Source of the DNA: Desulfovibrio cuneatus DSM 11391
GTDB lineage: Bacteria; Desulfobacterota; Desulfovibrionia; Desulfovibrionales; Desulfovibrionaceae
DNA length: 38,773 nucleotides
Assembly: GCF_000430005.1 (NCBI RefSeq)
Contig: NZ_AUCY01000031.1
Coordinates: 1 to 38,773 of the forward strand
Direction of reading: 5' to 3'
This document shows, piece by piece, positions 12,435 to 34,498 of the stretch. The translations under genes and the position numbers were made by a program. The first letter of the stretch is position 1; every line of letters starts with the position of its first letter. A model generated the notes under the pieces. The model did no database searches and was not told where the DNA came from. It saw nothing but the letters and a program-made list of their open reading frames with translations.

Positions 12435-12466
12435 CCATTACGAAAATGCTGATGTATTCCGTTTTG
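12435..12466 (-). repeat. Dispersed intergenic repeat copy
   Basis: Reverse complement AAACGGAATACATCAGCATT continues into TTCGTAATGG. It aligns with AAACGGAATAACTCAGCGTT continuing into TCCCTATGCC at 19014-19043. Confidence 0.65.
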
Positions 12467-12476
12467 CGGCGTGCCC

Positions 12477-12545
12477 TTTTTCGCTCGGGCTTCATTGGGG
12501 TGAACAGTCAGCAAAGCTAGCTGCTCCCTCCGCCCTTGCTCCACG
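12477..12545 (+). repeat. Second repeat family, copy 1 (CGCTCGGGCT...)
   Basis: Shares TTTTCGCTCGGGCT, then a GGTGAACAG and CAGC...GCTAGC, then CCCTCCGCCC with 38666-38735; a short copy is at 37657-37679. Its function is unknown. Confidence 0.5.
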
Positions 12546-12633
12546 GCTCGCTACGCTCGCGACTGCCGTCGGCTTTAAGGAAACAGTCGAGGACGGAAGA
12601 GTCCATTCCTGTTTCAAAAAAAGCTCATGCCTT

Positions 12634-12684
12634 GCCAAACGAAATAACTGAGCATTTCCTAAATACCATTTAATCAGTGCTTCC
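12634..12684 (+). repeat. Dispersed intergenic repeat copy
   Basis: GCCAAACGAAATAACTGAGC and the following CATTTCC match the palindrome arm at 7152-7174, and the continuing half matches 7267-7305. It is the most complete single copy in the window. Confidence 0.7.
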
Positions 12685-12774
12685 ATTACCAATAAAACAA
12701 CAGAAGAGCAATGAAGCTCAATAAAAAAAACGGCACAGCACCCTTTGCAAGGCGCTGTGCCGTAAGCGTTATGC

Positions 12775-13935: not shown

Positions 13936-13937
13936 GA

Positions 13938-14222
13938 CTACCACCTCTTTGTCTTCACGTTATGAACATGCAGGTGCTCGCCGCGCTTAATGGGAGCCAC
14001 AACTTTACCAATGTCCGTATTGTACTTGAACACAGTATCGCCTACTGCAAAATCCTTCATGGCAACTTTGTGCCCAATGGGAATATCGCTAAGGATTTTG
14101 AAAGAAATTGTTTTGTCTTCCTGCATAATCCAGCCTGTGCAGTCTGTACCTGCCTTCAGCCCTTCGACCACGACAACACCGACACCATCGGCGGCTTCGT
14201 GGACAATAAAATCAATGGACAT
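13938..14222 (-). CDS. suyA: (2R)-sulfolactate sulfo-lyase, alpha subunit SuyA (SAF domain)
   Basis: The 94-aa protein is a single SAF domain with the pattern seen in SuyA and UxaA N-termini: [31 protein letters not shown] and [18 protein letters not shown]. It ends in KTKRW, as I remember for SuyA. ATG 14220-14222 ([10 protein letters not shown]) has GAGGAG about 6 nt upstream. The frame is open further up, but the upstream part overlaps the sigma54 promoter at 14434-14449, which rules out the longer reading. It is the first gene of suyA-suyB, probably continuing to larA. Small SAF subunits hold part of the substrate-binding lid over the large subunit. Confidence 0.82.
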
Positions 14223-14433
14223 AACGACTCCTCGGGTTGTTTTATCCGTCACCAACGGGGGAACAATTTCCCAGCCAATATGCGGCAAAACCTTGTACTT
14301 TTTGTTTCCTTCCCTCAATTTGCCCGCGGTTGCAAAAGCAGGGAAAGAATAAAAAACAATACTAATGCCAGAAAGTGCCAACATTGCACGCCTGACTTGC
14401 CATGCAAGTAGACGCGCAGAGTTGCCTGAGAGG

Positions 14434-14449
14434 AGCAAAAGCTGTGCCA
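14434..14449 (-). promoter_or_regulatory. Sigma54 (-24/-12) promoter of suyAB
   Basis: The minus-strand sequence TGGCACA-GCTT-TTGCT is a near-perfect RpoN site (GG 14447-14448, GC 14435-14436). The predicted start is near 14423, giving a 200-nt leader to suyA. The activator site pair begins 87 bp upstream. Confidence 0.9.
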
Positions 14450-14535
14450 ACAATGGCATATATTTAATTAATCAAATTAAAACAGAATGTTATAAACACA
14501 ATAAAACAAGTTCAAAAAAAAATTATCATTCACTT

Positions 14536-14570
14536 TGCCCGCATATAGACATTTTGCTCGTATATGGGCA
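14536..14570. promoter_or_regulatory. Paired activator-binding sites between suyA and its regulator
   Basis: TGCCCGCATATAGACA (14536-14551) and TGCTCGTATATGGGCA (14555-14570) start 19 bp apart, as at the two other promoters. They also lie 82 bp upstream of the start codon of the divergent activator gene, so the regulator may control its own synthesis. Confidence 0.85.
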
Positions 14571-14651
14571 TAGTCAACTTCCACATCCACATGGACTTTA
14601 TTTCACAAATTCTCGGCAGCTATTTTTATGCTGCGATACAGGGGGGAGAGT

Positions 14652-16196
14652 ATGTCACTCGTAATGAACTCACTCGGCAGGCAGGCAGATGAGCTTGGCA
14701 GAAAGCTCATGGAAATGCTTACCAAACGTACCCGGCGTAAACTTTTTTTCAGCACCCTTGCCCGCCTGCTGGAAAAGCATTTCCACTTCGACAGGTTGTG
14801 CATAAACCTGTACGACCAAAAAGGGGAAATGCTCACCTACTTCACCGCAGCGGAAGGCACCATTGTCAGCACGCTTTCCCCTGTACGCCCGGCGGAAGCT
14901 TCCAGCACCGTGGCAGGGCATGTTATTGAAACCCGCAAGCCTGTGGTTATTACCGACTTCGCCCAATATTTCCCCGAATCCAGCATACACCCCATTGCCG
15001 AAGCAGGCCTTGCTTCCACCATGGCCTTCCCCCTGATGCTGGACAATGAAATTATTGCCACGCTGCACTGCTCGTTTGCAGAACCACCAGCCAATATATA
15101 CGATATCACCTCGTTCCTGGTGGAACTTTCCCCGGTTATTGCCACGTGCCTGGGCGCTATTTTAAGCCTGGAACACCTGCACTACCAAACTGTGCAGGCC
15201 CCGTTGCAGCCACTGTTTTTCCCCACCACTGAAGACACCGTGGTGTGCCACAGCCCTGCCATGCGGGCCATAATGCGCAAAATAAACACCATTGCCAAAC
15301 TGCACCTGCCCGTGCTGCTGCTGGGGGAAACAGGCACGGGGAAAAGCCTTATTGCCCAGGAAATTCACCGCAGAAGCCAGTGCAAGGAAGCCCACTTTGT
15401 GAAGGTGAACTGCCCATCCCTGGCCCCTACGCTGTTTGAAAGCGAACTGTTTGGGCACGCCAAAGGGGCGTTTACCGGGGCAGAAACCAAGCGCATGGGC
15501 CGCTTTGAACTGGCCCACGGTGGCACCCTGTTTCTGGATGAAATAGCCGAACTCACCCCGGAAATGCAAAGCAAGCTCTTGCAGGTGCTGGAAGATTCCA
15601 GCTTTGAGCGCGTGGGGGAAAGCATTCCCCTGGCCGTGAATGTGCGCATTATTTCCGCCACCAACGTACACGTGCAAAAAGCCGTGCAGGAAGGGAAACT
15701 GCGGGCAGACCTGTATTACCGCCTTTCCGGCTACACGGTGGAACTGCCCCCCCTGCGGGAACGCAAGGAAGACCTTGCCCCCCTGGCCGCCCTTACTGCT
15801 GCCCAGGCCGCCAACCAGCTTGGCCTGCCTGCAATTAACCTGACCACAGCCCTTACAGCCCCGCTGTTGCAGCACCGCTGGCCCGGCAACGTGCGGGAGT
15901 TGCGCAACGTTATTACCAAACTGGTCATTCTTGCCAGCCTCCAAAAAAAGCTGACCCCCACAGACGTGCAACGCACTATTGAAGAATGCAGCCTGCACGG
16001 CCCCGGCGCTAGCAGCAGCACTCTGGAAAACTACAGGCCGCGCCCCCTGGCCGACGTAGAACGCGACCATATTCAACAAACCCTGGATTATACCCGTGGC
16101 ATTATTGCCGGGGCCGATGGGGCGGCATCCATTCTTGGTATGCCCCGCAGCACCCTGCAACACAGAATGCAAAAGCTTGGCATTCAATTTAGGTAG
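14652..16196 (+). CDS. Sigma54-dependent transcriptional activator (GAF-AAA+-Fis HTH)
   Basis: The 514-aa bacterial enhancer-binding protein has a GAF-like sensor domain (about residues 25-175), a sigma54-interaction AAA+ domain with Walker A GETGTGKS (225-232), GAFTGA (272-277, contacts sigma54) and GTLFLDEIAEL as Walker B, and a Fis-type helix-turn-helix at the C-terminus (AASILGMPRSTLQHRMQKLG). There is no receiver domain, so the GAF domain probably senses a small molecule directly. ATG 14652-14654 follows GGGGGGAG. The gene is divergent from suyAB, and the intergenic region carries the paired palindromes shared by three sigma54 promoters. It is therefore the best candidate regulator of the sulfolactate/TRAP/AOR genes (inference). 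Confidence 0.92.
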   Translation: MSLVMNSLGRQADELGRKLMEMLTKRTRRKLFFSTLARLLEKHFHFDRLCINLYDQKGEMLTYFTAAEGTIVSTLSPVRPAEASSTVAGHVIETRKPVVITDFAQYFPESSIHPIAEAGLASTMAFPLMLDNEIIATLHCSFAEPPANIYDITSFLVELSPVIATCLGAILSLEHLHYQTVQAPLQPLFFPTTEDTVVCHSPAMRAIMRKINTIAKLHLPVLLLGETGTGKSLIAQEIHRRSQCKEAHFVKVNCPSLAPTLFESELFGHAKGAFTGAETKRMGRFELAHGGTLFLDEIAELTPEMQSKLLQVLEDSSFERVGESIPLAVNVRIISATNVHVQKAVQEGKLRADLYYRLSGYTVELPPLRERKEDLAPLAALTAAQAANQLGLPAINLTTALTAPLLQHRWPGNVRELRNVITKLVILASLQKKLTPTDVQRTIEECSLHGPGASSSTLENYRPRPLADVERDHIQQTLDYTRGIIAGADGAASILGMPRSTLQHRMQKLGIQFR

Positions 16197-21096: not shown

Positions 21097-22842
21097 TTAC
21101 TTGAAGTTCTTCTTGTCCAGGTGTTCATACTTGGGCAAATGACGAATTGGCAGGGCCAATGCGTCGCGGCGGAAAGGAGGTGCAAGGTGCTGGTTACTGC
21201 CGTCTGTCATGATTTCAATAACAGCTGGTCGGCGGTTTTTCTTTGCAGCTTCCAGGGCTTCTGCCAGGTCTTTCTGGTTGTTCACGCAGTATCCATCTGC
21301 CCCCATGGCTTCGCCAATTTTGGCGTACGACTTAGACCAGATTTCCGTACCGATAAAGCGGTTGTTGTAAAAGTCCATCTGGTTTTTCTTTTCTGCGCAC
21401 CATGCGCCGTTATTGTACACGGTGGCTATTACAGGCAGGTTATACTGGCACGCTGTGGGCACTTCAAACAGGCTCATGCCCCAGGCACCGTCGCCAGCAA
21501 TGGAAACCACGGTATCTTCCGGGCAGGCAATTTGCGCACCTAAGGCGGCCTGGTAGGCAAAGCCCGTGTTGCCAAAGGTAAGGGTGGCAACGTGGCGCTT
21601 GGGGTTGTTGAAACGCAGGTAGCCGTTAGCCATGGAAGAGGTGTTGCCAATGTCTGTTGTGGCAATGGCGTTGGTGGCGGTAACGAACTTGCCCACAACT
21701 TCCAAAGCCTTGCGGGGGTGCATGCGTCCTGGCTGGGTGGGCTCATTGGCAATAGTTGCAATTTCTTTGTACCAGTCTTCCAGTTCAGCCTTGATCATGT
21801 TGTACACCGGGGTCAGGTCTTTTTTGGCTGGCACAGCTTCACGCAGGCGCTTGAAGAGTTCTTCGGAAGCGTCTTTTGCATCGGCACACAGGCCCACAGC
21901 CACGGGGTGGGTTTTGGCAATGTGGCGGGGGTTAATGTCGATCTGCACGATCTTGGCTGTTTTCGGGAAGTAGTTGATATCATACTGGGGCAAAGTGCCA
22001 AAGTAGGAAAGGCGTGTGCCCACAGCAAGAATCACGTCGGCCTTTTGCAGAATACGCATGGCAGCCTTGGAACCCATGTAACCGATGGGGCCTGTCCACA
22101 GGGGGTGGTCGTATTCAAAGGCGTCATTGTGCATGTAGGTGGTAGCAACAGGTGCGCCAAGGTGTTCAGCCAAGGCTTTAATGGTACCAATACAATCCGT
22201 GTCTACCACACCACGGCCAGAAATAATTACAGGATTTTTAGCGCTCTTCAACACTTCCACCGCAGCGGCAAAGTGTTCAGGATTGCCAATGCCACCGGGG
22301 GCTACGCGGTACTGGGAAGGGTGCAAAATATCTTCATTCAGTTCGCCGTAAAAATAGTCACGGGGAATATCAACAAGTACGGGGCCGCGCTCTGCGTAGG
22401 CAATGCGGAATGCAGTGCGCAGAATGTCGGCAGCACGGTTGGGGTGCGGCACGCGCAAGGAAGCTTTGGTAATGGGCTTGAAAATGTTCCAGGAATCGCA
22501 TTCCTGAAAGCCGTCCCAGCCAATGGAGCCGGTGCCAGCACTTGGGGAAAGCACAATCATGGGCGTGTGGGCCATGTTGGCTGTGGCAACGGCGGTGACA
22601 AAATTGGTAACACCAGGGCCGTTCTGACCAATTACAACACCTGCACGGCCTGTAAGACGGCTATAGGCATCTGCCATGTGGCCAGCCGTTTGTTCATGAC
22701 GCACGGAAAAAAAATCAATCCCGGCAGCAGGCAAAAGATCGAGTAAATCCATGAACGCAGAACCGAGAATTCCGCTCATGTGAGTCACACCTTCCTGCAC
22801 CAAAACTTCTGCCATGGCTTCACTTGGGGTCATCTTAGGCAT
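21097..22842 (-). CDS. xsc: Sulfoacetaldehyde acetyltransferase Xsc
   Basis: The 581-aa TPP enzyme matches Xsc in length and in order of motifs: [48 protein letters not shown] (with the catalytic-type Glu of TPP enzymes), [39 protein letters not shown] and the TPP/Mg motif GDGAWGMS...YNNGAW. Xsc converts sulfoacetaldehyde plus phosphate to acetyl phosphate and sulfite, yielding ATP and, in a sulfite respirer, an electron acceptor. ATG 22840-22842 (MPKMTPSEA) has GGAG 7 nt upstream. It follows the flavoprotein gene after 129 bp on the same strand and may share its transcript. Upstream genes should then produce sulfoacetaldehyde. Confidence 0.9.
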
Positions 22843-22971
22843 TGTTGTTCTCCATAAAGTCATCGGTTGTTGTGTCTAAACAAAAAACAGTCCACTACAA
22901 AAATCTGGCACACAAACGTATCTTCGGTTTCAATCGTCTGCCAATGGGAAACTCCTTTATTTATGACAAGG

Positions 22972-24606
22972 CTACAAACCCATACCCTCGGCCTGAAACT
23001 GCACTGACACTAAACCTTCCACAAAACGGCAGCGGGTATGGCCTGTATATTCTTCCTGAAGCAACGGGAAATCCGCACGGTAATGAGCGCCTCGGCTCTC
23101 CTGCCGGGCAAGGGCACTTCGCACAACGCAGGAGGCCACCATACATTTATGCAGGAACTTTTCCCGCGCAACGCTGGCCCACAATACCTTGGCAGCGCCC
23201 TCAAGCTCATGGAGAGTGGCCAGGGCGGCCTGCAAGCCTTTGCCTGTTCGCACCACAGAAACCTGCTCCCACATGAGGGTACGCAATTGCCGCGTCCACT
23301 CTTTTACTTGGAAAAGGGCATCCGAAGTTGCATCAATACAATTTGAAAACGATGTGAAAACACTGTCAGAGCGTGTTGCAGCCCCCGCCATATCTTCCAC
23401 CGCGGCACGGCCTGCCCGCCATCCAAACACGCAGGCATCCATTAAAGAACCTCCTGCCAGGCGGTTGGCCCCGTGAACGCCGCCGCATACTTCCCCCGCG
23501 GCATATAGCCCGGCCACCGTGGTGCGGCCCTGCGGGTCAATGACTACCCCGCCGAGGCTGTAATGGGCACAAGGCCCGGCAACAAGCATGTCCTTGCCAA
23601 GGCATAAGCCGTGTTTTGCCAGAACCTGCCCGAACAATGAAAATTGCCCTTCCAGGGCGGCGTGGGGAACTTTGCCACAGTCCACGTAAACACCACCGTT
23701 CACACCACGTCCGGCGGCAACTTCCTGAAAAATTGCCCGTGCCATAACATCCCGCGTGGCCATGTTTCCGGTTTTACTGTACCGGGGCATGAAAGCTTCA
23801 CCCGTGCTATTACGCAGCAGCGCCCCGGCACCGAACAGGGAATCAAGCACTGGCAGCTTTACCGGGGTAAACATCATACAGGGGTGAAACTGCACCATTT
23901 CCATGTCACGCACGGTGCAACCTGCCCCAAGGGCCAGGGCAACACCGTCGCCATAACTGTCTGACACGTTGTTGGTGCGCCAAAACAGCCCGGCATACCC
24001 CCCCGTAGCAAGTACCACAGCGTCAGCCCGCACCGAAAAACACTTCCCGCTTTTGCGTTCCACCACAAGCACACCAGTAACGCGCCCTTCCGTGCAGAGC
24101 AGGCGCAACGCGCAAAACCCGTTATGTACGGCAACTCCTTCCACCGCGAGGTGTTCCGCCAAAGGCCTCACAAAAGTGATACCCCGCATGGCAAAAGCCA
24201 CGCCTGCCCAATCTGTGGGAATGTTCCTGGGTACGCTGTGCCCTGGTGGCAACCGCCGAAGCAGCTTGCCTCCTTCCCGCGCAAAGACAACGCCGAACTC
24301 CTCCATTCGTTGCAAGGCAGGGAACGATTCTTCTGCAAGCACCCTGGCCAGGGAGGAGTTTCCTACCCCTTGGCCAGACTGCATGATATCGTGCAGAAAA
24401 AGTTCCGGGGGGTTCTCCACATCATTGGTGGCACTGGATATACCCCCGGCCACAAGGGTATTGCCCGAGCGCCCCACAGGCCCAAGGCTGAGCATGGAAA
24501 CAGCCGCTCCTGCACTGCGGGCTGCAAGGGCCGCCGTTATTCCGGCCAGGCCACCACCCAGAACGATAACGGCAGGAGCACCAGAAGAGGACGTTGATTT
24601 TGCCAT
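22972..24606 (-). CDS. FAD-dependent oxidoreductase of the SdhA/FrdA/NadB type
   Basis: The 544-aa flavoprotein has the dinucleotide motif VIVLGGGLAGITAA at residues 13-26, GPVGRSGNTLVAGGIS near 45-60, LPPGHSVPR in the capping region and GANRLAGGSLMDACVFG toward the C-terminus, followed by a helical tail. In succinate dehydrogenase a His after the Ser binds FAD covalently; here the position reads SGNT, so FAD is likely non-covalent as in NadB and AprA. No heme or signal sequence is present, so it is cytoplasmic. The start at 24604-24606 is 2 nt after the SDR stop, which shows operon coupling. The substrate is unknown; NadB (aspartate oxidase) is a possible but poorer fit in this context. Confidence 0.8.
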   Translation of the reverse strand: MAKSTSSSGAPAVIVLGGGLAGITAALAARSAGAAVSMLSLGPVGRSGNTLVAGGISSATNDVENPPELFLHDIMQSGQGVGNSSLARVLAEESFPALQRMEEFGVVFAREGGKLLRRLPPGHSVPRNIPTDWAGVAFAMRGITFVRPLAEHLAVEGVAVHNGFCALRLLCTEGRVTGVLVVERKSGKCFSVRADAVVLATGGYAGLFWRTNNVSDSYGDGVALALGAGCTVRDMEMVQFHPCMMFTPVKLPVLDSLFGAGALLRNSTGEAFMPRYSKTGNMATRDVMARAIFQEVAAGRGVNGGVYVDCGKVPHAALEGQFSLFGQVLAKHGLCLGKDMLVAGPCAHYSLGGVVIDPQGRTTVAGLYAAGEVCGGVHGANRLAGGSLMDACVFGWRAGRAAVEDMAGAATRSDSVFTSFSNCIDATSDALFQVKEWTRQLRTLMWEQVSVVRTGKGLQAALATLHELEGAAKVLWASVAREKFLHKCMVASCVVRSALARQESRGAHYRADFPLLQEEYTGHTRCRFVEGLVSVQFQAEGMGL

Positions 24607-24608
24607 TG

Positions 24609-25382
24609 CTACACCATGTAGGAACCAGCATTTACGAACAGGTCCGCACCCGTCATAAATGCAGAAGCCGGGGAACAAAGAAAGGCCACAGAATCTGCCA
24701 CTGCCCCCGGCGGGATAAACGTATGCAGGGGTGTTTGCGATTTCAGGTGTTCCACATAATCCTCAAACTCCATGCCCGCTTGTGCGGCCCCGTGGTGCAG
24801 TGTCTTTTCAATGCGCGGCCCTTCCACCCTGCCGGGGCTTACCGCATTCACCCGAATACCAAATTCACCAAGGTCCATAGCCAGACTGCGGGTAAACCCA
24901 AGCACGGCAGCCTTGGTGGTGCAATAAGGGCTGCGGCCTTTTAATGGGCGCCTGCCTGCAACAGAAGCAATATTCACAATGCTTCCTCCCTGTTGCTTCA
25001 GGCCGGGCAACAGATACCGACAGGTAAGAAACATGCCTGTGAGGTTTACAGAAAGCGACTCATTCCATTCCTCCAGGGAAAACTCATCTATTTGCCCCAG
25101 CCCACCCACAATGCCCGAACTGTTCACTAGGCAATGGACAGTGCCAAAGCGTTCCACCGCACTGTTCGCCATAGCCTGTACAGAAGCTTCCTGGCGCAAG
25201 TCCGTATATACGGCAAGAGCCTGGCGCCCTATTTGGCGCACCTCTTCGGCCACTCCTCCTGTGCCCGCAGAAATATCTGCCACCACAATATCTGCCCCCT
25301 GTGCGGCAAGCTTCAGGCAAATCTCCCTGCCTATTCCCTGCCCCCCGCCCACCACCACGGCTGTAAGCCCTGTGCAGTCCAT
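24609..25382 (-). CDS. Short-chain dehydrogenase/reductase (SDR)
   Basis: The 257-aa classical SDR has the cofactor motif GGGQGIG (residues 12-18), NSSG in place of NAG near 88, the catalytic Ser in NIASVAG and YCTTK as the YxxxK pair. It is an NAD(P)-dependent alcohol or hydroxyacid dehydrogenase. ATG 25380-25382 follows GGGAG. It sits in the leftward operon with a TTT transporter, a second SDR, a TPP enzyme, a flavoprotein and Xsc. In aerobic DHPS degraders SDR enzymes (HpsO, HpsP) oxidise DHPS; a role on a sulfonated alcohol is possible here but not proved. Confidence 0.85.
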   Translation of the reverse strand: MDCTGLTAVVVGGGQGIGREICLKLAAQGADIVVADISAGTGGVAEEVRQIGRQALAVYTDLRQEASVQAMANSAVERFGTVHCLVNSSGIVGGLGQIDEFSLEEWNESLSVNLTGMFLTCRYLLPGLKQQGGSIVNIASVAGRRPLKGRSPYCTTKAAVLGFTRSLAMDLGEFGIRVNAVSPGRVEGPRIEKTLHHGAAQAGMEFEDYVEHLKSQTPLHTFIPPGAVADSVAFLCSPASAFMTGADLFVNAGSYMV

Positions 25383-25491
25383 AATGATCTCCCTCGCAAT
25401 ATCAACCGTTAATGAGTATCAAACGAAGTAACAAGGCTGCAAAGAGTGCGGGGGGAGGCTAGGGCACGCCGCACCTTCCCCCCCACCAACA

Positions 25492-26430
25492 TTACTTTTT
25501 GCTGAGCATTTCCTTGAGAACCCCACCGTAATACTCAAATTCCTGATCAAACTGCTTCTGGAATGCCTCTGGCCCCATCCAGTAAGCAGCGGAACTTATT
25601 TTGGTCGCTTCTTCCGCAAATTCTTTGCTGGCAACCACTTCTTCAATGGCCTTTGCCAATGTGCCCGTTACTTCTGCGGGCATGTTCTTTGGGCCCATAA
25701 TGCCCTGCCAGTGCACCATGGGCTTGTCCAACCCCACTTCTTTGGTAGTGGGCATGTTGAGGTTGGCAACAGGCACATCCACATACTGCACCAGGCCATA
25801 TACATCGAATTGTGAAAGCGCTGCCGGGGCGTCTGCATGCAATTGCACTCGTCCGGCAATCATATCTTTCATAATTTCAGGGGTGCTGCGGTAAGGGATA
25901 TAACGAAACTGCAAGCCGAATTTTTCTGCCAGTTCCACCACGGGAACATGCGTCATATTGGCTGTTCCAGTAATGGCCACAACATATTTGTTGGGATTTT
26001 TACGCACTGCCTCAATCATGCCCTCAAGGTTTTTCCACGGCGCGACTTTGGAAGACATAAGCACCACGGGCTGGCGCGTTACCATGCCCAAAAAGGTGAA
26101 AGAATCTTTGCCATAAGGCAACTTTTGCGTATGCGGCTGCAAGCATACGGTCCCCACAGGGATATACCCAAGGGTATAGCCATCCGGCTTACTCCCTGTA
26201 ATCTGGGCAACGCCCTGTGTACCGCTGCCCCCAACAATATTTTGCACCACAATAGGTTGCCCAAGCTTTTTTTCCAGCATGTTGGCAACCAGGCGGGCGG
26301 GCACGTCTGTGCCACCACCTGCGCCAAAGGGTACAATCAGGGTAATGGGGTGGTCAGGGTAAGCGGCATGGGCAGCCGTGCACAACGTAACTACGAACAT
26401 GAGCGCAAGGCAAAAAATTCTTCGAATCAT
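25492..26430 (-). CDS. tctC: Tripartite tricarboxylate transporter substrate-binding protein TctC
   Basis: The 312-aa periplasmic binding protein starts MIRRIFCLALMFVVTLCTAA with cleavage expected after AHA (residue 22). The mature part has Bug/TctC motifs: YPDHPITLIVPFGAGGGTDVPARL near the N-terminus, GSKPDGYTLGY, and VQLHADAPAALSQF in the hinge. GGAGG lies 5 nt before ATG 26428-26430. tctC, tctA and tctB adjoin, so the transporter is complete. Bug proteins bind carboxylates; here a sulfonated carboxylate such as sulfolactate or sulfoacetate is a reasonable guess. The tctC-tctA-tctB order, with A before C in transcription, is a common bacterial variant. Confidence 0.93.
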   Translation of the reverse strand: MIRRIFCLALMFVVTLCTAAHAAYPDHPITLIVPFGAGGGTDVPARLVANMLEKKLGQPIVVQNIVGGSGTQGVAQITGSKPDGYTLGYIPVGTVCLQPHTQKLPYGKDSFTFLGMVTRQPVVLMSSKVAPWKNLEGMIEAVRKNPNKYVVAITGTANMTHVPVVELAEKFGLQFRYIPYRSTPEIMKDMIAGRVQLHADAPAALSQFDVYGLVQYVDVPVANLNMPTTKEVGLDKPMVHWQGIMGPKNMPAEVTGTLAKAIEEVVASKEFAEEATKISSAAYWMGPEAFQKQFDQEFEYYGGVLKEMLSKK

Positions 26431-26455
26431 ATAGTCCTCCAAGTAAAAAGGTGAG

Positions 26456-27952
26456 CTATGATGAAGTCTGCTTTTTCCGCTTTACAGTATCGCTCAACAC
26501 AGGCAACGCAATCATGCCTGCGGAAAACAAGAACAGAACCATTGCAATGGGCGAGGACAGAAGGAACGATAGCCAGGATTCTGTTCCCTTGAACAAGAGC
26601 ATTTGCCCAATGCTCATTTCAAACTGCTGGCCAAGCACCAGCCCGATAACAATGGGGGGCATGGGGAACCCCTGGCGGCGAAGCACATAGGCCAGCACCC
26701 CTGCCACCATGGTAACCACAACATCCACCATGTTCCCCCGCGCGCCGTAGGAACCAAGAATGCACAAAACCACCACAAAGCCCATAAGAATGGGTTCCGG
26801 CAGGCGAAGAAAATAATTGAATAACCGGGTGGTAATGACGCAAGCCGGGTACATGAGCAGGTTGGCAACGGCCAGGGCTGCAAAGGTGCCGTAAACTATT
26901 CCTGGGTTTTCCGTCATCAGGCGCACGCCAGGGCTGATGCCATGAATGGCAAATGTGGCCAGCATTATAGCCGTTACCGGGTCTCCGGGAATTCCCAGGG
27001 CAAGGGTGGGCACCATGGCCCCACCAGTCACGGCATTGTTGGCAGATTCTGCCGCAATAATACTGTCTGGCTCACCTTTGCCGAAGTTCTCCCTTCGAGG
27101 GGAAGAACGCTTGGCCTCGCCATAACTAAGGAACGAAGCGGTGGCCGCGCCTGTACCAGGCATAATGCCCACAATCGTGCCAATTATTGATGACTTCAAC
27201 AGCAGCCAGTACCTGCCGCTCCATTCCTTCATGGAAGGCAGCGTGACCCCGCTTGTGGAAGTGGCCTCCACCCGGCCCTCATACAACATGCTTTCAGCAC
27301 GGGTTATCACTTCAGAAAGCGCGAACACCCCCACAATAACGGGAACAAGGTCAATACCGCTGTTGAGCGAAAACAACCCAAAAGTAAAACGGCTTTCACT
27401 GGAAAAGGGCGAACCACCCACACAGGCCAGCAAAAGCCCCATAACACCAGCGGCAAGCCCTTTCATCTGGTTACCAGCGGAAATGCTTGAAATGCATGTC
27501 AGCCCCATAAGTATCAGGGCAAATGTTTCCAGCGCCCCGAATTCCAGGGCAAAAGCCGCCAGGGTGGGGGTGGCAATGGAAAGAACAAGGCAGGAAAAAA
27601 TACCCCCTGCAATGGAAGCAGAAAGCGCCCAGCCAATGGCCTTGGCAGACTTTCCCGCTTTTGCCATGGGGAAGCCGTCCAGGCTGGTACAGGCAGATTG
27701 AGGAGTGCCCGGCGTGTTAATGAGAATGGCGGAAATGGAACCACCGCAGATAGAACCGCAATACACGCCCAGCAACAGTGCCATGGCGGTACCGGCATCC
27801 ATGCCAAACGTAAACGGCAAGCACACGGTAATAGCCACCACAGAGCCAAGCCCCGGCAATGCCCCTACTATCATTCCAACAAGCACGCCCATGAAATTCA
27901 TTCCAAGGTTCAAGGGAGTCAATGCCGATAAGGCTCCTTGTAAACTATCCAT
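26456..27952 (-). CDS. tctA: Tripartite tricarboxylate transporter large membrane subunit TctA
   Basis: The 498-aa membrane protein has about 12 hydrophobic segments and the duplicated TctA motifs: MGVLVGMIVGALPGLGSVVA near residue 25, a second GIMPGTGAATASFLSYGEAK near 265, and GIPGDPVTAIML near 325. These glycine/proline-rich loops form the substrate path. ATG 27950-27952 (MDSLQGALSA) has GAGG 5 nt upstream; a GTG two codons earlier is too close to the ribosome site. It lies 25 bp before tctC and 46 bp after tctB in transcription. Confidence 0.95.
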   Translation of the reverse strand: MDSLQGALSALTPLNLGMNFMGVLVGMIVGALPGLGSVVAITVCLPFTFGMDAGTAMALLLGVYCGSICGGSISAILINTPGTPQSACTSLDGFPMAKAGKSAKAIGWALSASIAGGIFSCLVLSIATPTLAAFALEFGALETFALILMGLTCISSISAGNQMKGLAAGVMGLLLACVGGSPFSSESRFTFGLFSLNSGIDLVPVIVGVFALSEVITRAESMLYEGRVEATSTSGVTLPSMKEWSGRYWLLLKSSIIGTIVGIMPGTGAATASFLSYGEAKRSSPRRENFGKGEPDSIIAAESANNAVTGGAMVPTLALGIPGDPVTAIMLATFAIHGISPGVRLMTENPGIVYGTFAALAVANLLMYPACVITTRLFNYFLRLPEPILMGFVVVLCILGSYGARGNMVDVVVTMVAGVLAYVLRRQGFPMPPIVIGLVLGQQFEMSIGQMLLFKGTESWLSFLLSSPIAMVLFLFSAGMIALPVLSDTVKRKKQTSS

Positions 27953-27998
27953 ATTCACCTCATATTGGGATTAAATGGAACTCGGAAACCGGATGCGT

Positions 27999-28451
27999 TT
28001 ACCACCACGGGAATACAGGAAGAGGAATTTTTAAGGCGTAGGTGAAAAGCAGCCAGATGCAGGCAACGCCCACAAGGTTCACCAGCAAGAGCAGGCCGCA
28101 GCGCTTCCAGCCCATAACCAAGGCACAGCAAGAGGCCCCCACGACGCTGGAAACATAAAAACCGACATAGACAAATAGCAGTGCATACAGGCTCAGAGCC
28201 AATAGCATGAGGGGGGTGCGGCTTGTAATGGGTGCGATATGTTCACCTGTGGAACAGGCGGAAGCAGAAGGCTTAAAGGCGATAATAAAGCCAAGAACAG
28301 CCAAAAGGCCAATGAGCACACGGGGATAATCCATGGGATGAATACCTTCTGTCAGGAAGGCATCCCCCATACTGAGTGTTTGAGAATACAAAATAAGAGC
28401 AACAAGAACGATACTGAATCCGCTGAGCATATTCCTTTTTATCAAGGTCAT
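27999..28451 (-). CDS. tctB: Tripartite tricarboxylate transporter small membrane subunit TctB
   Basis: The 150-aa protein has four hydrophobic segments (about residues 8-28, 40-60, 78-100 and 118-145), as expected for TctB, and starts MTLIKRNMLSGFSIVLVALI. AGGAGG is 4 nt before ATG 28449-28451. A 228-bp gap separates it from the upstream SDR gene; that gap contains a dispersed repeat and no gene. Confidence 0.88.
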   Translation of the reverse strand: MTLIKRNMLSGFSIVLVALILYSQTLSMGDAFLTEGIHPMDYPRVLIGLLAVLGFIIAFKPSASACSTGEHIAPITSRTPLMLLALSLYALLFVYVGFYVSSVVGASCCALVMGWKRCGLLLLVNLVGVACIWLLFTYALKIPLPVFPWW

Positions 28452-28503
28452 TTTGCCTCCTGGCGGTGGTAAAGAAAACGTATTTCTTGGCAGTAGCTCC
28501 GCA

Positions 28504-28528
28504 GTATGAAAATGCTGAATTATTATGT
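28504..28528 (-). repeat. Dispersed intergenic repeat copy (degenerate)
   Basis: Reverse complement AATAATTCAGCATTTTCATAC resembles AATAACTCAGCGTTTCCCTAT at 19020-19040. It is in the 228-bp gap between tctB and the upstream SDR. Confidence 0.5.
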
Positions 28529-28679
28529 GGTGCCGCAGTTAGCGTGAAGCGCAGCAAAAGGAAACGGGTTGTCCAAAAGAAACTGTGGCAGAGAGAGCGT
28601 CGCGAAACCAGTACCCGGAGCAGAGTCGCTACACGCTATGCAGCACCAACGAAACTCTGCCCCAGGGCTCATTACGCCC

Positions 28680-29414
28680 TTAATCCATAAGCGTTCCGCC
28701 ATTCACATCAAGCACATGTCCGGTAATGAAGTTTGCTGCGGGGGAGCATAAAAACCAGGCACTTTCTGCCATATCTTCCGGGGTACCCACCCGCTTTAAC
28801 GGCACACGCGCCGCAATGGCAGGAATCTGTTCCTTGGGAATCATGGTGCCGGAAACTGGACCAGGGGCCACGCTATTCACCCGTATATTATTTCCGGCAA
28901 GTTCAAGGGCCAGCGACTTTACCAGGGAAATAACCCCGGCCTTGGAAGCGCAGTAATGAGCCTTTGTTTTTTCCGCATTGGCACCAAGAGCGGCAAAACC
29001 TGTTTTTGCCGCACGTGAAGTGAACAGCACCATGCTGCCCCCATGCTGTTGCATGGCAGGAATACACGCTTTTGCCAAAAAGAAGGCCCCTGTCAGGTTC
29101 ACACGGATAACCTGCTCCCATTCCGCAACAGGCATCTCCAATATTGTACAGGCAGGCTTGGTAATGGCGGCGCAATGTACCAGGGCTTCAAGGCGGCCAT
29201 ATTTTTGCGCTTCCTCCACCAAATGCACACAGGCAGCAAAGTCGCTTACGTCTGCCCGCATAGCGTGGGCATGGGGCAGGGCAGCGGCTTCTGCCGATGC
29301 ATCAACCAAGTCAACCATAACCACCTGGTGGGTGGCGGCAAAACGCCGGGCACAAGCAAGCCCAATATTATTGGCTGCCCCGGTAACAATAACAACTGGC
29401 AAATCACATTGCAT
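28680..29414 (-). CDS. Short-chain dehydrogenase/reductase (SDR), second in operon
   Basis: The 244-aa classical SDR has TGAANNIG (residues 11-18) as cofactor motif, HCAA where NAG usually lies, the Ser of FTSRAAK and YCASK as YxxxK. The Asp in VMVDLVD at the end of beta-2 suggests NAD(H) preference. AGGAG is 6 nt before ATG 29412-29414. It follows the TPP-enzyme gene by 15 bp, so the two are co-translated. It differs clearly from the other SDR of the operon; a pair of SDRs could serve the two enantiomers or two steps of an oxidation (inference). Confidence 0.85.
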   Translation of the reverse strand: MQCDLPVVIVTGAANNIGLACARRFAATHQVVMVDLVDASAEAAALPHAHAMRADVSDFAACVHLVEEAQKYGRLEALVHCAAITKPACTILEMPVAEWEQVIRVNLTGAFFLAKACIPAMQQHGGSMVLFTSRAAKTGFAALGANAEKTKAHYCASKAGVISLVKSLALELAGNNIRVNSVAPGPVSGTMIPKEQIPAIAARVPLKRVGTPEDMAESAWFLCSPAANFITGHVLDVNGGTLMD

Positions 29415-29429
29415 GAAGGCTCCTTGGGG

Positions 29430-31121
29430 CTACAGGGGCTGGTTATCGGAAGCGGGGCGGTGGGAATCGTTGGGATCGATTTTCACATCAATGACCACCG
29501 GGCAATTTTCATGAGAATGCGCTTCGCGCAACACATCACCAAAAATCTTGGGGTCAGTCACGGTATAGCCCTTGGCCCCCATGCCCTCACACATCTTGGC
29601 AAAGTCCACATCCGGAAAATCGCACGCTATGCGCTTTGCCCCCATGTTGTCGCGCACCATGCCAAGGCCGCTGTTGTTCATCACTACAAAGGTTGCGCCT
29701 ATCTTATGCTGGGCGCACGTGGCAACCACATCGGCTGTCATCATAAAACCGCCGTCCCCTGAAACAGAGGTGACGCGTTTTTCCGGTAATGCGAGCTTGG
29801 CGGCAGCGGCAGCAGGCCCGCCCCAGCCCATGCCCCCTGCCCCGCCGGGGGCCAGCAACTGGTTTTGATGGCGTACACGCAGGGCATTGGTAAACCAAAT
29901 ACGGCTGTTCCCTGCATCCAGGGTAATAATGTCGTCCTTGCCCATAAACTTTTGCATGTCGCGCACCACGTCCATGTTGGCAACACGGCCCGGCGCAGCA
30001 GTGAACCCCTGGGGATTGTCGTAAGACTGCTGTGCTTTGATGCTCTTTATAGCTTCCAGTCGTGCAGTATGCTTTGCCGGGGAAAGGCCACGGCGGGCGA
30101 GCATAGGCACCACGTCTGCTACGTCACCAGTAATGGCAAGGTCCACGGGGTACACCCACCCGGCAGCGCGGGGGTCAACATCTACCTGCACCAGCTTTTG
30201 CTCGCCAGGGCGAATCATTTTGGGATCACGAAAACGGGTATAATCCGGCCCCATGCTGGCCCCGAGCATTAATACCAGGTCGGCTTTTTGCACCATGCGG
30301 TTGGCAGCAGGGTTGCCCCATGTGCCAAGCATACCGCATGAAATATCGGCACTTTCATCCACGGTGCCTTTGCCAAGGTAGCTTGTTACTATGGCAATGC
30401 CTGCCTTGCGTGCCAGTTCCAGCAAGGCAGTACCCATACCAGAACCAAAAACGCCATTGCCAGCCACAATAACAGGCAACGCGGCGGCATCCAGCATGGC
30501 ACCAAGGCGTTCCACAGCTTCGCTGTCTGGCTTGGGAGCCGTGTAGGCATAATACCCCTGTGAAGGATAAATGGGCGTGCGTGGATTTTCGGGAAATTCC
30601 TGGCGGATGATGGTGGTTTTCATAATAAGGGCTGCCGGGCCTTTGCGCGGCAACGAGGCGTGCTTATAAGCCATTTGTGCGCCGTAGACTACGTCTTCCG
30701 GTTCTGTGGCATAGGCGCAATACTTAGTAATGGGGCGCAGCACCGCCTGAATGTCCAAAGCGCCATAACCACCCACCATGCTCTGGTAACAACCATACAA
30801 GCCATAGCCATCATAATCTGAGGTATCCGTAATGACGAGCATGGGTGTGCCTGAAAAGGCCGCTTCAATAATACCGAATTGCCCAGTACTTGCCACCCAG
30901 GGGCCCTGCCCCATGAACACACCGGGCTTGCCCGTGATGCGCCCGGTGGCCTGGGCCATGATAGAAGCCACCTGCTCACTGCGGCACAGCACCAAATCAA
31001 TAGCATCCTTGCGGTCATAAAAAGCAGGTAATGTCCAGGTTATGCCCAACCCCGGCAAAGTAAATGCCCGTTTTACACCGCTTTCAATCAGCGTATCCAG
31101 CAATTTCTCATTGGTCTTCAT
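29430..31121 (-). CDS. TPP-dependent enzyme, acetolactate-synthase/decarboxylase-like
   Basis: The 563-aa protein has the three-domain layout of acetolactate synthase-like enzymes: PYR domain with CRSEQVASIMAQATGR (catalytic-type Glu), a central Rossmann domain around 190-330, and the PP domain with GDGGFMMTADVVATCAQ...VVMNNSGLG (TPP/Mg motif). It is not Xsc: it lacks the IPRDYFYGE signature. GGAG is 6 nt before ATG 31119-31121. It is the first gene behind a sigma54 promoter and heads the operon that ends in xsc. A 2-oxoacid decarboxylase role, such as sulfopyruvate to sulfoacetaldehyde, would link it to Xsc; the known sulfopyruvate decarboxylase ComDE is shorter, so this is a hypothesis. Confidence 0.78.
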   Translation of the reverse strand: MKTNEKLLDTLIESGVKRAFTLPGLGITWTLPAFYDRKDAIDLVLCRSEQVASIMAQATGRITGKPGVFMGQGPWVASTGQFGIIEAAFSGTPMLVITDTSDYDGYGLYGCYQSMVGGYGALDIQAVLRPITKYCAYATEPEDVVYGAQMAYKHASLPRKGPAALIMKTTIIRQEFPENPRTPIYPSQGYYAYTAPKPDSEAVERLGAMLDAAALPVIVAGNGVFGSGMGTALLELARKAGIAIVTSYLGKGTVDESADISCGMLGTWGNPAANRMVQKADLVLMLGASMGPDYTRFRDPKMIRPGEQKLVQVDVDPRAAGWVYPVDLAITGDVADVVPMLARRGLSPAKHTARLEAIKSIKAQQSYDNPQGFTAAPGRVANMDVVRDMQKFMGKDDIITLDAGNSRIWFTNALRVRHQNQLLAPGGAGGMGWGGPAAAAAKLALPEKRVTSVSGDGGFMMTADVVATCAQHKIGATFVVMNNSGLGMVRDNMGAKRIACDFPDVDFAKMCEGMGAKGYTVTDPKIFGDVLREAHSHENCPVVIDVKIDPNDSHRPASDNQPL

Positions 31122-31184: not shown

Positions 31185-31200
31185 AGCAATTTACATGCCA
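31185..31200 (-). promoter_or_regulatory. Sigma54 (-24/-12) promoter of the TPP-SDR-TTT-xsc operon
   Basis: The minus-strand sequence TGGCATG-TAAA-TTGCT fits RpoN consensus fully, with GG 31198-31199 and GC 31186-31187. Transcription would begin near 31173, about 50 nt before the TPP gene. Confidence 0.9.
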
Positions 31201-31253
31201 AAATTTAATACTATAAACGTTTAATTTTATTGTATTTTAATTAAAATACACAC

Positions 31254-31269
31254 TTGGACAGTTGTCCAA
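31254..31269. promoter_or_regulatory. Palindromic activator site (TTGGACAGTTGTCCAA)
   Basis: TTGGACA and TGTCCAA form a 7-bp inverted repeat around GT, 54 bp upstream of the -24 box. A half-site copy, CTGGACAGTTCTATTC, lies at 31311-31326. It is unlike the TATATGGGCA pairs of module 1, so a different activator, probably the divergent 1037-aa protein, binds here. Confidence 0.7.
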
Positions 31270-31384
31270 AAACAAGATACTATCCTAAAAATAGACAGCA
31301 CGTCTTATTTCTGGACAGTTCTATTCCGTCCCAAGACCTAGAGCAACGTCTGGCACCTATGCCATCTATGCCTGGAGGTTCATT

Positions 31385-34300
31385 ATGCCCGACCTCTCAC
31401 CCGTTGCCACTCTGGTGGCAATTGCCCTGCATGAACTGGGGGGAAAGCTTTCCGCAATGTGCCTGGCCCTGACCCTGGAAATGCCACAACCTTTGGTGGA
31501 GGCTGCCCTCAAGGAACTTGTACACCGGCAATTGGTAAGCGCATCAGGTACGCCTGAACGAACACGCTATACTGCAATCACGCCGCTTGCTCTCCTTCCT
31601 TCCTTGGGCAAACTGTTCCCCGGTCAAGAGGAAGAACGGAATCTTGCAGCCTGTTTCCGCCTGCGTGAAGCAGGCAACTTCCTTGAAAGTTGTTCTATTA
31701 TTTTTGAGCGCATCGACCATTTTCTGGACAACGCTTCCTCTGCGGCTGCTGTGGCCTGCCTTGGGCTGGGCATTGGCTATTTGCAGGAATGGAATGACGA
31801 GGGACACAAAGCCGCAGAAAAGCGTCGATTTGTAGAGCTTGCGCTTGGTGCGGCGGATACTTCCATGTACCTCACCATGTTCCACCATGAAGCCAGGCAA
31901 CTGGTTATTCGCGCCCGAAGCGTAGCCATGGATATGGGCGACAAACGCACCGCGGCCCTGTGCAGCTTGCTGGGGGCCTGCCTGGAAAACATGGCAGCAG
32001 AATGTTCTGCCGTGCGCCTGCGCCTTTTGCGTGAGGAAAGCACAGGGGCACTCAGCGAACTGTGTGATACAGATGCCATTACCCAACTGCATTATTTTCA
32101 TGGCATGTTCGCCTTTTGGGAAGGCAATTTTCAAAAAGTGCTTACCACCTTTGAAGGGGCAGCAGGGGCCCCGCAGGTTTGGAAAGGTCGCTTTCAAACA
32201 GAAATGTTCTCACTGTACACCAGTTCAGCGGCTGTCTACCTTGGGCACTTTCACCGGGCAGTGGGCATTTTGGAATCTGCCCGGCGGACGGCTGAATTAA
32301 CGCAAAACACCTTCAAAACCATGTGGTGGGAAGCGCAACTCTCTATGATCCTTCTCTATATGAACCGCTGCGAAGAGGCGCTGGAACTCATTGACCGCGT
32401 CATCTCCCAGGCAAACCCGGAGTCGGAAACAAAAATTTACATATGGGGCATGCGGGGACTTGCGTATTATCATTTTCGCAAAGGACAGGTAAAAGCGGCG
32501 CATCAGGCTCTTGTGGATGCCATGCTCGCAGGCCAACGCCAGGGACTTAACCGCCCTATTTATTCCTATCCCTGGATGTTTGACATGCTGTTGGAGTTTC
32601 ATGAGCAGGGGTTGCCCCCGGTACCCGGCATGGTACTGAATGACGAACTTGCCAGGGCACTGGAAGGCCCCAACAAGCACTTGCTGGCAACGGCCCTGCG
32701 CACCCGTGCCGTTATCAGCCTGCGCAAGGGGGAACCCGCAGAGCATGTTGTTACGCTCTTGCAACAAAGCTTACAGTTATTTGAGGAAGTGGGAAACCCG
32801 CTGGAAGCAGCCCGGACAAAGCTGCACATTGCCCACGCCCTTGCCCAGCAAGGCCTAGCCAGTAAGGCGCAAACCGCAAAAGAGGAAGCACTACACACTC
32901 TCGCTTTTTTTGAACAGCCGGAAGGAGATGGGTTTCAGTCCAGCCTTGCGCATACGGCCCATATCATGCTGCCTGCCCATGGTGCCACCAATGAAGTAAA
33001 AATCGGACAATCCTGGCTTTTGGGCACGCCAGCACCGGAAGAGAACCCGGCGGAAAACTGCCGGATGGCTTTGGAGTCTATCCCCCCCTGGCAAGATGTG
33101 AAACAGTTTCTGCACCAGATGACCCACATTGCCTGCTGTGAACTGGGAGCGGAACGTGCCGCCCTGTTTCGTGTTCGCGAGCCTGGCGTGCTTGAGGCAC
33201 AAAGCACATGCAATATTACGCCTGCGGAGCTGAGCACCGGGGCCATTACGGGCAGCCTCCTTCGAATTTTGCCACAGCTAGGCGAAACCCCGGCCCTTTT
33301 GGAAAACGAAGGATTCGTCTCCCTTATAGTTCCGCTGCATGTGGCGCATGGAACCCTTTGGTTCCTGTACCTTGAAAGTACGTATGCCCTGCGTGCTTTG
33401 CGGGCAGTTTCTCCGCTAGTCCGCAAGGAAGTGGCAGACATTTTTTCCCAAGAGCTACGCACGGCTCTGCGGCATAACAGAACAGAGCATCCCAACGCCG
33501 TGGCACAGGAACAGGCAAAAGCAATCCCGTATCAGGATAGCCCAGAAACCCTGTACCACGGCAGCCCGGTAATGCGGCAGGTCATATCCAAAAGCAGGCA
33601 GGTTGCGGCTACAGACGCTCCAGCTCTCATCCTGGGGGAAACCGGGGTGGGTAAAGAATTGCTCGCCAGATATATTCATGATTGTAGTGGCAGGGCTGGT
33701 CCTTTTGTTCCTGTGCACCCGGCGAGCATTCCTGAAAATCTCTTTGAAAGTGAATTTTTTGGCCATGAAAAAGGTGCATTCACCGGAGCCCACAAACAAA
33801 AAATAGGGCTTGCGGAAATGGCCCATGGAGGGACACTTTTTATTGACGAAGTGGCGGATATTCCAGGGAGTACGCAGGTTAAGCTGCTGCGGGTATTTCA
33901 GGAAAAACGTTTTTTGCGGGTTGGGGGACGCATGGAAGTCCATTCCCAGTTCCGTTTAGTAGGGGCTACCAACAAAAACCTGTGGCTCGAAGTACAAGCC
34001 GGGCGTTTTCGGGAGGATTTGTATTACCGCATGTCTGTAGTGCCCCTGACCTTGCCACCATTGCGAGAACGCCAGGAAGACATACCCCTTCTGGTCAAAC
34101 TGTTCCTTGACCGATTTGCACGGCGCTATCATCGCTCTATTCCTTCTCCTACAACGAAAGATATGGCCCTTCTCATGAACTACGCCTGGCCTGGTAATGT
34201 ACGGGAATTAAAAAGCGTGGTGGAGCGGGCGGTTATCCTTTACAGGGGCGGAGTGTTGCAGTATGGCCTTGAACCCTGCACTGCAACCGAAAGCCTTGCT

Positions 34301-34498
34301 TGCAACAAAAGCCACCCCTGCGAAGAACAACATCTGCTAGCCGACCTTCCTACGCTTGAAACCCTACAACGCAGGTATGTACAGCATGTGCTCAAATTAA
34401 CTGAAGGAAAAATAACAGGAGAGCGAGGCGCCCTCAAAATACTGGGCATGAAACGGTCTACTTTTTATGCCAAATTCATGTCCTTGAAACCCTCATAA
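31385..34498 (+). CDS. Large sigma54-dependent activator with winged-helix, TPR-like, GAF, AAA+ and HTH domains
   Basis: The 1037-aa protein is about twice the usual size for this class. Residues 1-75 look like a winged helix-turn-helix. Residues 80-520 are helical repeats of the MalT/TPR kind (for example CLGLGIGYLQEW, GMRGLAYYHFRKGQVKAAHQAL). Residues 560-700 resemble a GAF domain. The AAA+ domain follows, with Walker A GETGVGKE near 751, GAFTGA near 795 and GTLFIDEVADI as Walker B. The C-terminus has a Fis-type HTH (GALKILGMKRSTFYAKF). GGAGG is 6 nt before the ATG. It is divergent from the operon at 21097-31121, with a sigma54 promoter and palindrome between them, and probably activates it. 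Confidence 0.9.
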   Translation: MPDLSPVATLVAIALHELGGKLSAMCLALTLEMPQPLVEAALKELVHRQLVSASGTPERTRYTAITPLALLPSLGKLFPGQEEERNLAACFRLREAGNFLESCSIIFERIDHFLDNASSAAAVACLGLGIGYLQEWNDEGHKAAEKRRFVELALGAADTSMYLTMFHHEARQLVIRARSVAMDMGDKRTAALCSLLGACLENMAAECSAVRLRLLREESTGALSELCDTDAITQLHYFHGMFAFWEGNFQKVLTTFEGAAGAPQVWKGRFQTEMFSLYTSSAAVYLGHFHRAVGILESARRTAELTQNTFKTMWWEAQLSMILLYMNRCEEALELIDRVISQANPESETKIYIWGMRGLAYYHFRKGQVKAAHQALVDAMLAGQRQGLNRPIYSYPWMFDMLLEFHEQGLPPVPGMVLNDELARALEGPNKHLLATALRTRAVISLRKGEPAEHVVTLLQQSLQLFEEVGNPLEAARTKLHIAHALAQQGLASKAQTAKEEALHTLAFFEQPEGDGFQSSLAHTAHIMLPAHGATNEVKIGQSWLLGTPAPEENPAENCRMALESIPPWQDVKQFLHQMTHIACCELGAERAALFRVREPGVLEAQSTCNITPAELSTGAITGSLLRILPQLGETPALLENEGFVSLIVPLHVAHGTLWFLYLESTYALRALRAVSPLVRKEVADIFSQELRTALRHNRTEHPNAVAQEQAKAIPYQDSPETLYHGSPVMRQVISKSRQVAATDAPALILGETGVGKELLARYIHDCSGRAGPFVPVHPASIPENLFESEFFGHEKGAFTGAHKQKIGLAEMAHGGTLFIDEVADIPGSTQVKLLRVFQEKRFLRVGGRMEVHSQFRLVGATNKNLWLEVQAGRFREDLYYRMSVVPLTLPPLRERQEDIPLLVKLFLDRFARRYHRSIPSPTTKDMALLMNYAWPGNVRELKSVVERAVILYRGGVLQYGLEPCTATESLACNKSHPCEEQHLLADLPTLETLQRRYVQHVLKLTEGKITGERGALKILGMKRSTFYAKFMSLKPS

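Follow-up and report, generated by a model that had tools for sequence, protein, structure and literature searches.

Introduction

Sulfoacetaldehyde acetyltransferase (Xsc) is a central desulfonating enzyme, and isethionate is among the compounds that feed it. Here, an operon of eight genes that ends in xsc is described in Desulfovibrio cuneatus DSM 11391. The operon lies in a stretch of 38,773 nucleotides (NZ_AUCY01000031.1), referred to as the window, and begins with a gene for a thiamine diphosphate (ThDP, also TPP) enzyme, which was given the working name F0. Taurine and sulfopyruvate routes into Xsc are known (PMC10507020, PMC6278857), as is the route from sulfolactate through sulfopyruvate and sulfoacetaldehyde to Xsc (PMC6278857, PMC5812351).

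A tripartite tricarboxylate transporter (TTT) importer together with two sulfolactate dehydrogenases represents a known sulfolactate arrangement (PMC10507020, PMC5812351), and ComDE and SlcD have been named for sulfolactate degradation (PMC12330013). In Roseovarius nubinhibens, the pathway includes SlcHFG, sulfolactate dehydrogenase, sulfopyruvate decarboxylation and Xsc (Denger 2009, as reported in PMC6278857 and PMC5812351). The D. cuneatus operon is similar in its TTT importer, dehydrogenase step, predicted ThDP-dependent decarboxylation and Xsc. However, in place of SlcD and ComDE, short-chain dehydrogenases (SDRs) and a single-chain enzyme of the acetolactate synthase superfamily are proposed here, the host is an anaerobe with Dsr, and the pathway is predicted from genes.

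Taurine respiration by Tpa, Ald and Xsc in Taurinivorans muris (PMC10507020) likewise places Xsc in a sulfite reducer, but the operon described here contains no Tpa and has F0, SDRs, a TTT and a flavoprotein instead. The SlcC-ComC-SuyAB pathway of T. muris (PMC10507020) and the 2,3-dihydroxypropanesulfonate (DHPS)-SuyAB pathway of Desulfovibrio DF1 (PMC6278857) resemble the proposed one in sulfonate import, dehydrogenases and delivery of sulfite to Dsr; these two organisms desulfonate by SuyAB, whereas SuyAB in the window forms a separate module at 2.7-16.2 kb. No description of an acetolactate-synthase-type sulfopyruvate decarboxylase or of an F0-type operon was found in the literature searched (bioRxiv was not covered). 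As far as that literature goes, F0 and the genes upstream of xsc would represent an undescribed way of feeding Xsc.

Organization of the operon

The eight genes are all encoded on the minus strand, from 31121 to 21097, and are transcribed in the order F0, SDR2, TctB, TctA, TctC, SDR1, flavoprotein and Xsc, preceded by a promoter candidate and a divergent activator gene:

29430..31121, minus strand: F0, ThDP enzyme of the acetolactate synthase superfamily, gene 1 of the operon; proposed to form sulfoacetaldehyde (as a sulfopyruvate decarboxylase or a lyase)
28680..29414, minus strand: SDR2, short-chain dehydrogenase
27999..28451, minus strand: TctB, small membrane subunit of the TTT (PF07331)
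26456..27958, minus strand: TctA, large membrane subunit of the TTT (PF01970)
25492..26430, minus strand: TctC, solute receptor of the TTT (PF03401)
24609..25382, minus strand: SDR1, second short-chain dehydrogenase
about 22972..24606, minus strand: flavoprotein of the FrdA/NadB superfamily, with no adjoining iron-sulfur subunit
21097..22836, minus strand: Xsc, sulfoacetaldehyde acetyltransferase (above the TIGR03457 cut-off)
31185..31200, minus strand: sigma-54 (-24/-12) promoter candidate, exact consensus match
31253..31270, minus strand: inverted repeat (palindrome), possibly an activator-binding site
31385..34498, plus strand: divergent sigma-54-dependent activator, 1037 amino acids

The original prediction, made from the window alone, had claimed a leftward set of genes running from a TPP enzyme behind a sigma-54 promoter to a confidently assigned xsc; this was confirmed, and the gene set from F0 to Xsc is real. 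Xsc scored 770.8 bits with TIGR03457 (cut-off 676.4) and 838.6 bits with NF005713 (cut-off 620). All three TTT subunits scored above the Pfam gathering scores, so that the domain set of this transporter is complete. The activator showed weak TPR matches, under the gathering score, in its N-terminal part.

The sigma-54 consensus (TGGCAYRN4TTGCW) was scanned on both strands of the window, with the expected number of matches taken from a first-order Markov simulation. An exact match at 31200-31185, 63 bp ahead of F0, is one of two found in the window, compared to 0.24 expected. With three mismatches permitted the pattern occurred at chance level (99 found, 102 expected), and therefore only the exact match was counted. 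By sequence, the operon thus combines a -24/-12 element with an adjacent activator, as expected under sigma-54 dependence. Within the 135 bp ahead of xsc, neither a sigma-54 match nor a terminator-like site on the minus strand was listed, which makes a single transcript from F0 to xsc likely. An internal promoter could lie in the 228 bp that separate SDR2 from TctB; one sigma-70-like match is located at 28548, and matches of this type occur in the window at near the chance number.

Identity and distribution of F0

F0 is a single chain of 563 amino acids. It matched 53 models and fell short of the curated cut-off for every one of the 25 that were listed. For the biosynthetic acetolactate synthase model TIGR00118 the score was 247.4 bits (cut-off 538.35), and for the Xsc model TIGR03457 it was 173.2 bits (cut-off 676.4). 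Acetolactate synthase and pyruvate oxidase were rejected as identities of F0 on these grounds. That the TPP enzyme might prove to be acetolactate synthase had been named in the original prediction among the outcomes that would count against it; the host genome was found to encode two IlvB proteins apart from F0, both of which pass TIGR00118. An oxalyl-CoA model was not among the 25 listed, and chains of this name in the PDB matched F0 weakly.

The AlphaFold model of F0 (predicted local distance difference test score 89.2) has the fold of the acetolactate synthase/glyoxylate carboligase superfamily, with VIA-align Z scores of about 40-43, 508-546 residues aligned and root-mean-square deviations of 2.1-3.1 among the 50 matches listed. 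Like these enzymes, F0 has a Glu, at position 49, that aligns with the conserved Glu. Unlike AlsS of B. subtilis, it has Gly at the aligned Gln, within a loop of low model confidence. Decarboxylases and carboligases aligned with F0 alike, and the fold therefore does not discriminate its reaction.

Among 247 genomes of the family, F0 had a match at E 1e-60 in the host only. By comparison, an Xsc match with an E value no higher than 1e-130 is present in 34 of these genomes, the host among them (identity is 79-88% in 31 of the remaining 33 and only 48% in two), and Xsc was consequently rejected as a novelty in itself. Thus, Xsc is common in the family and F0 is not. Across 395 genomes of the phylum, F0 homologues with 63% identity were present in three genomes of one genus of Desulfarculaceae, all of which carry a further copy (49-51%), and more distant homologues (33-38%) occurred in 12 others. 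A scan of genome contigs yielded 79 F0 loci, chiefly in Rhodobacterales, Hyphomicrobiales and Burkholderiales, with an identity of 49-63% for 78 and of 39% for the remaining one; no relative was found in the 56 viral contig candidates.

Linkage between F0 and Xsc

Neighbouring genes were counted over 77 of these loci (in two, L110 and L121, the gene caller had missed F0), and Xsc, SDR2, TctA and the flavoprotein were recounted on all 79 by tblastn. All five F0 homologues with at least 60% identity found in the phylum (the window, three Desulfarculaceae and HyVt-363) lie with Xsc. In the three Desulfarculaceae, all members of one genus, the genes for F0, acetate kinase and Xsc directly follow one another, and the clusters also contain a homologue of SDR1 (41-45% identity), TRAP (tripartite ATP-independent periplasmic) transporter genes and, divergent nearby, a homologue of SDR2 (60-62%). 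One of these acetate kinases (G436) scored 445.3 bits with TIGR00016 (cut-off 293.4), while the other two are assigned by motif and position; Xsc of another member, G298, scored 740 bits. In HyVt-363 (Desulfobacterales), F0 and SDR2 are located about 10 kb from Xsc, which is followed by acetate kinase. In an F0 tree, the five homologues branch outside the alpha- and betaproteobacterial groups. In Alphaproteobacteria, five further F0 loci have Xsc within 9 kb; three of these scored 909-920 bits and a fourth 917, all above the cut-off.

For a search of whole genomes, 50 of the 79 F0 loci were picked for named or longer records and for spread; removal of L124 left 49 genomes, assigned by record title to Alphaproteobacteria (34), Burkholderiales (13) and Desulfobacterota (2). 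Xsc above the cut-off was present in 44 of the 49 (31, 11 and 2, respectively). In Burkholderiales, 11 of 13 F0 genomes carried Xsc compared to 14 of 119 controls (Fisher p 8e-8, uncorrected for ancestry); the controls were taken irrespective of F0 content, with the centre genome left out. A crude linkage estimate, likewise uncorrected for ancestry, gave 0.4 linked genomes expected among 44 and 6 seen. From these genome comparisons, the link between F0 and Xsc looks real.

Moreover, the sharing of F0, an SDR1-like protein, SDR2 and Xsc, together with the acetate kinase between F0 and Xsc in one genus, indicates that Xsc receives what F0 produces, and hence that this product is, or becomes, sulfoacetaldehyde. 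The host genome (3.36 Mb, 96% complete) points in the same direction. It has a single Xsc; the second-best match reached 350 bits, and the matches on C11 and C13 were IlvB. The best ComE (TIGR03846) match was 47.7 bits (cut-off 221.5), from a 582-codon frame that is IlvB. With TIGR03372, a class-III aminotransferase model used as a surrogate, ArgD and HemL were the only proteins detected in this genome, no Tpa model having been run. The ComDE feed is thus missing and the taurine aminotransferase feed appears to be, and F0 and the SDRs are therefore the most likely source of sulfoacetaldehyde for the single Xsc. Also, ComE was above the cut-off in none of the 13 Burkholderiales F0 genomes.

On balance, F0 is probably the founding member of a ThDP enzyme family that has not been described before. 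Its members, each a single chain, would produce sulfoacetaldehyde in concert with SDRs and an importer of the TTT or TRAP type, and in anaerobes they would be linked in an operon to Xsc (in some cases also to acetate kinase), conserving ATP and supplying sulfite for respiration. By its gene content, the module would represent a variant of Xsc-dependent sulfonate catabolism with a predicted key ThDP enzyme.

SDRs, transporter and flavoprotein

A homologue of SDR2 (at least 46% identity over at least 180 amino acids) was found with F0 in 28 of 79 loci, and some SDR was located within 9 kb of F0 in 64 of 77. Among 28 TctA proteins encoded within 9 kb of F0, 24 were 47-56% identical to TctA of the window and four were 32-36% identical; five TctA elsewhere in the fetched F0 loci showed 34-36% identity. 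TctA matched 771 plasmid records, the best 15 of which consisted of eight at 49-53% and seven at about 40-41%. One of the eight, a Martelella mediterranea plasmid, carries F0. None of four other inspected TctA plasmids carries F0, and three of these four show sugar-acid genes.

The flavoprotein belongs to the FrdA/NadB superfamily. It scored 334 bits with the L-aspartate oxidase (NadB) model TIGR00551 (cut-off 452.75). Residues aligned with what we take to be His244, Arg290, His351 and Arg386 of E. coli NadB are retained (an R386L mutant chain agrees with the last number). The residue aligned with Glu121, presumably the amino-group contact in E. coli NadB, is not Glu, and the motif TE..RGEG is changed to LD..FGAG. 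NadB was rejected as its identity on the basis of this score and these residue changes, and a true NadB is encoded separately in the host genome. The nearest orthologues in the phylum (35-41% identity) have a PGHS motif in most cases. Five of the six regions around these orthologues were inspected (36-41% identity); reference sulfonate genes were found in none of the five, and the Pfam names of ten neighbours from four of them gave no functional hint. A flavoprotein of this type was present in only one of the 79 F0 loci, at 28.5%; it is not a conserved partner of F0. The original prediction had left the flavoprotein unexplained, and no role is assigned to it here.

Proposed pathway and alternatives

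The operon is best read as a module for sulfonate catabolism and respiration. Its TTT would import a short hydroxy acid with a sulfonate group, for which sulfolactate is the likeliest candidate, and one or both SDRs would oxidize this acid to 3-sulfopyruvate. F0, as a single chain in place of the two-subunit ComDE, would convert sulfopyruvate to sulfoacetaldehyde, from which Xsc, by its family assignment, would form acetyl phosphate and sulfite with phosphate. Sulfite could then pass to DsrAB (DsrA is present in the host genome, at 641.8 bits, above the cut-off), and acetyl phosphate could yield ATP by an acetate kinase such as that found within the operon in relatives. Oxidation of sulfolactate to sulfopyruvate followed by decarboxylation would be the shortest chemistry. 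That the module ends in sulfoacetaldehyde is well supported and quite probable. Less secure are the identity of the substrate and the decarboxylation, which are put forward tentatively; the pathway as a whole, from sulfolactate import to Dsr, is offered as a possibility that falls somewhat short of an even chance. Accordingly graded, the route of SDR, TPP enzyme and Xsc in the original prediction is supported by comparative genomics as far as the TPP enzyme feeding Xsc is concerned, while its sulfolactate or DHPS substrate and its decarboxylation are still conjectural.

Several observations weigh against this pathway. Xsc is the only enzyme of the module assigned by a curated model, and two SDRs and a flavoprotein exceed the needs of one oxidation. 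Among the enzymes encoded at F0 loci are PhyH dioxygenases, lactonases and epimerases, which would be superfluous for a sulfolactate route. On plasmids that lack F0, window-type TctA has L-threonate dehydrogenase and L-arabinonate dehydratase as neighbours, which points to sugar acids; because of this context the TctA clade is not sulfonate-specific, and the substrate of the module can only be inferred. Moreover, the SuyAB module about 7 kb away could be an alternative outlet for sulfolactate.

Other observations concern the linkage itself. Xsc was located within the fetched stretch at 6 of 79 F0 loci (7 with HyVt-363), and 5 of the 49 F0 genomes had no Xsc above the cut-off (one of these has a 580-bit fragment). 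Regions were taken from 11 of the 12 genomes with distant homologues (all but G286; 32-37% identity), and none contained Xsc, which confines the link to the close F0 family. So many Rhodobacterales carry Xsc (87 of 121 controls) that its co-occurrence with F0 is uninformative there. In Burkholderiales, F0 and Xsc occupy separate loci (F0 in none of 11 Xsc regions). The one Xsc locus checked there has phosphate acetyltransferase on one side and, on the other, a DAO-family oxidase (Pfam) that may be a taurine dehydrogenase; since the loci are separate and at least one Xsc is near such an oxidase, the co-occurrence in this order could reflect lifestyle. Finally, ComE was above the cut-off in 6 of 50 F0 genomes, including the Xsc-linked HyVt-363, and F0 is therefore at most a partial replacement of ComDE.

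A less probable alternative is that F0 feeds Xsc as an acyloin-type (benzaldehyde-lyase-like) C-C lyase. The SDRs would then oxidize the carbinol adjoining the CH2-SO3 group of a longer sulfonate, such as a sulfo-sugar acid or DHPS, and F0 would cleave the resulting alpha-hydroxy ketone to sulfoacetaldehyde and a second aldehyde. This would give a role to both SDRs, and in places it fits the genes of the relatives about equally well: the Desulfarculaceae clusters with three ThDP enzymes besides Xsc, the member (G518) with more than one TRAP set and two genes read as zinc alcohol dehydrogenases (no NCBIfam match at 1e-60), the lactonase, PhyH and LacI-type genes of other relatives and the TctA clade found beside sugar-acid genes. 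The F0 model, aligning with decarboxylases and carboligases alike, is also compatible with such a lyase. However, the operon of the window shows no gene for an aldolase, kinase or dehydratase belonging to a sulfo-sugar pathway, and the longer substrate is itself purely conjectural.

It is improbable that F0, the SDRs and the TTT degrade a non-sulfonated sugar acid and that xsc is a chance or regulatory neighbour. The sugar-acid context of related TTT transporters, the F0 genomes without Xsc and the distant F0 homologues without Xsc would be consistent with this, but the order F0, acetate kinase, Xsc in three Desulfarculaceae, the crude excess of linked loci across several lineages and the co-occurrence in Burkholderiales argue against it. 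Slightly less probable still is that one SDR acts as an isethionate dehydrogenase, so that the main flow runs from isethionate through sulfoacetaldehyde to Xsc and F0 acts on another compound. Sulfoacetaldehyde reductases of the SDR type (IsfD) have been described (PMC6616044), but this would leave unexplained both the tracking of Xsc by F0 and the TTT importer, which belongs to a type associated mostly with carboxylates in the account of PMC5812351. Oxidation of L-cysteate, an isostere of aspartate, to sulfopyruvate by the flavoprotein, as a second input to F0, is very unlikely: the retained His/Arg set and the separate true NadB would allow it, but the residue at Glu121, the altered motif, the low TIGR00551 score and the uninformative orthologue regions speak against it.

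If the proposal of F0 as a further feed of Xsc is true, a wider range of sulfonates could be converted to sulfite and sulfide in sediments and guts, and F0 would be a marker gene for an unmapped flux. As a sulfopyruvate decarboxylase, F0 would explain sulfolactate use by Xsc carriers without ComDE; as a lyase, it would represent a new entry for longer sulfonates.

Additional observations

The separate SuyAB-type module at 2755-16196 of the window contains TRAP genes DctPQM, an aldehyde:ferredoxin oxidoreductase, a HIBADH-type dehydrogenase, a LarA-type racemase, SuyB-like and SuyA-like proteins and a sigma-54 activator. The LarA-type protein scored 573.8 bits with the LarAH5 malate racemase model (cut-off 462) and may act as a sulfolactate racemase. 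The other exact match to the sigma-54 consensus is located at 14449-14434, at the 5' end of the long suyA open reading frame, suggesting that suyA starts further downstream and that the SuyAB module, too, is under sigma-54 control.

In the F0 genome of a Polynucleobacter (L164), Xsc is found near homologues of SuyA and SuyB (67% and 74% identity to those of the window), along with a D-2-hydroxyacid dehydrogenase, an Ldh_2 dehydrogenase and an FrdA-like flavoprotein. The ThDP enzymes besides Xsc in the Desulfarculaceae (L030-L035) are F0, its 50% paralogue and F9, which together with SDRs and TRAP genes occupy about 25 kb; G518 also has an amidohydrolase-like protein beside its two alcohol-dehydrogenase-like genes. 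F9 represents a second uncharacterised ThDP family, encoded no more than 9 kb from F0 at 12 of 77 loci (L056, L058, L076 and others), and some F9 loci encode a 3-hydroxyacyl-CoA-dehydrogenase-like protein, a LacI regulator and an SDR. F9 was also found on two Achromobacter plasmids, and the one inspected carries genes for TauD, a lactonase (SMP-30), an SDR and TctC.

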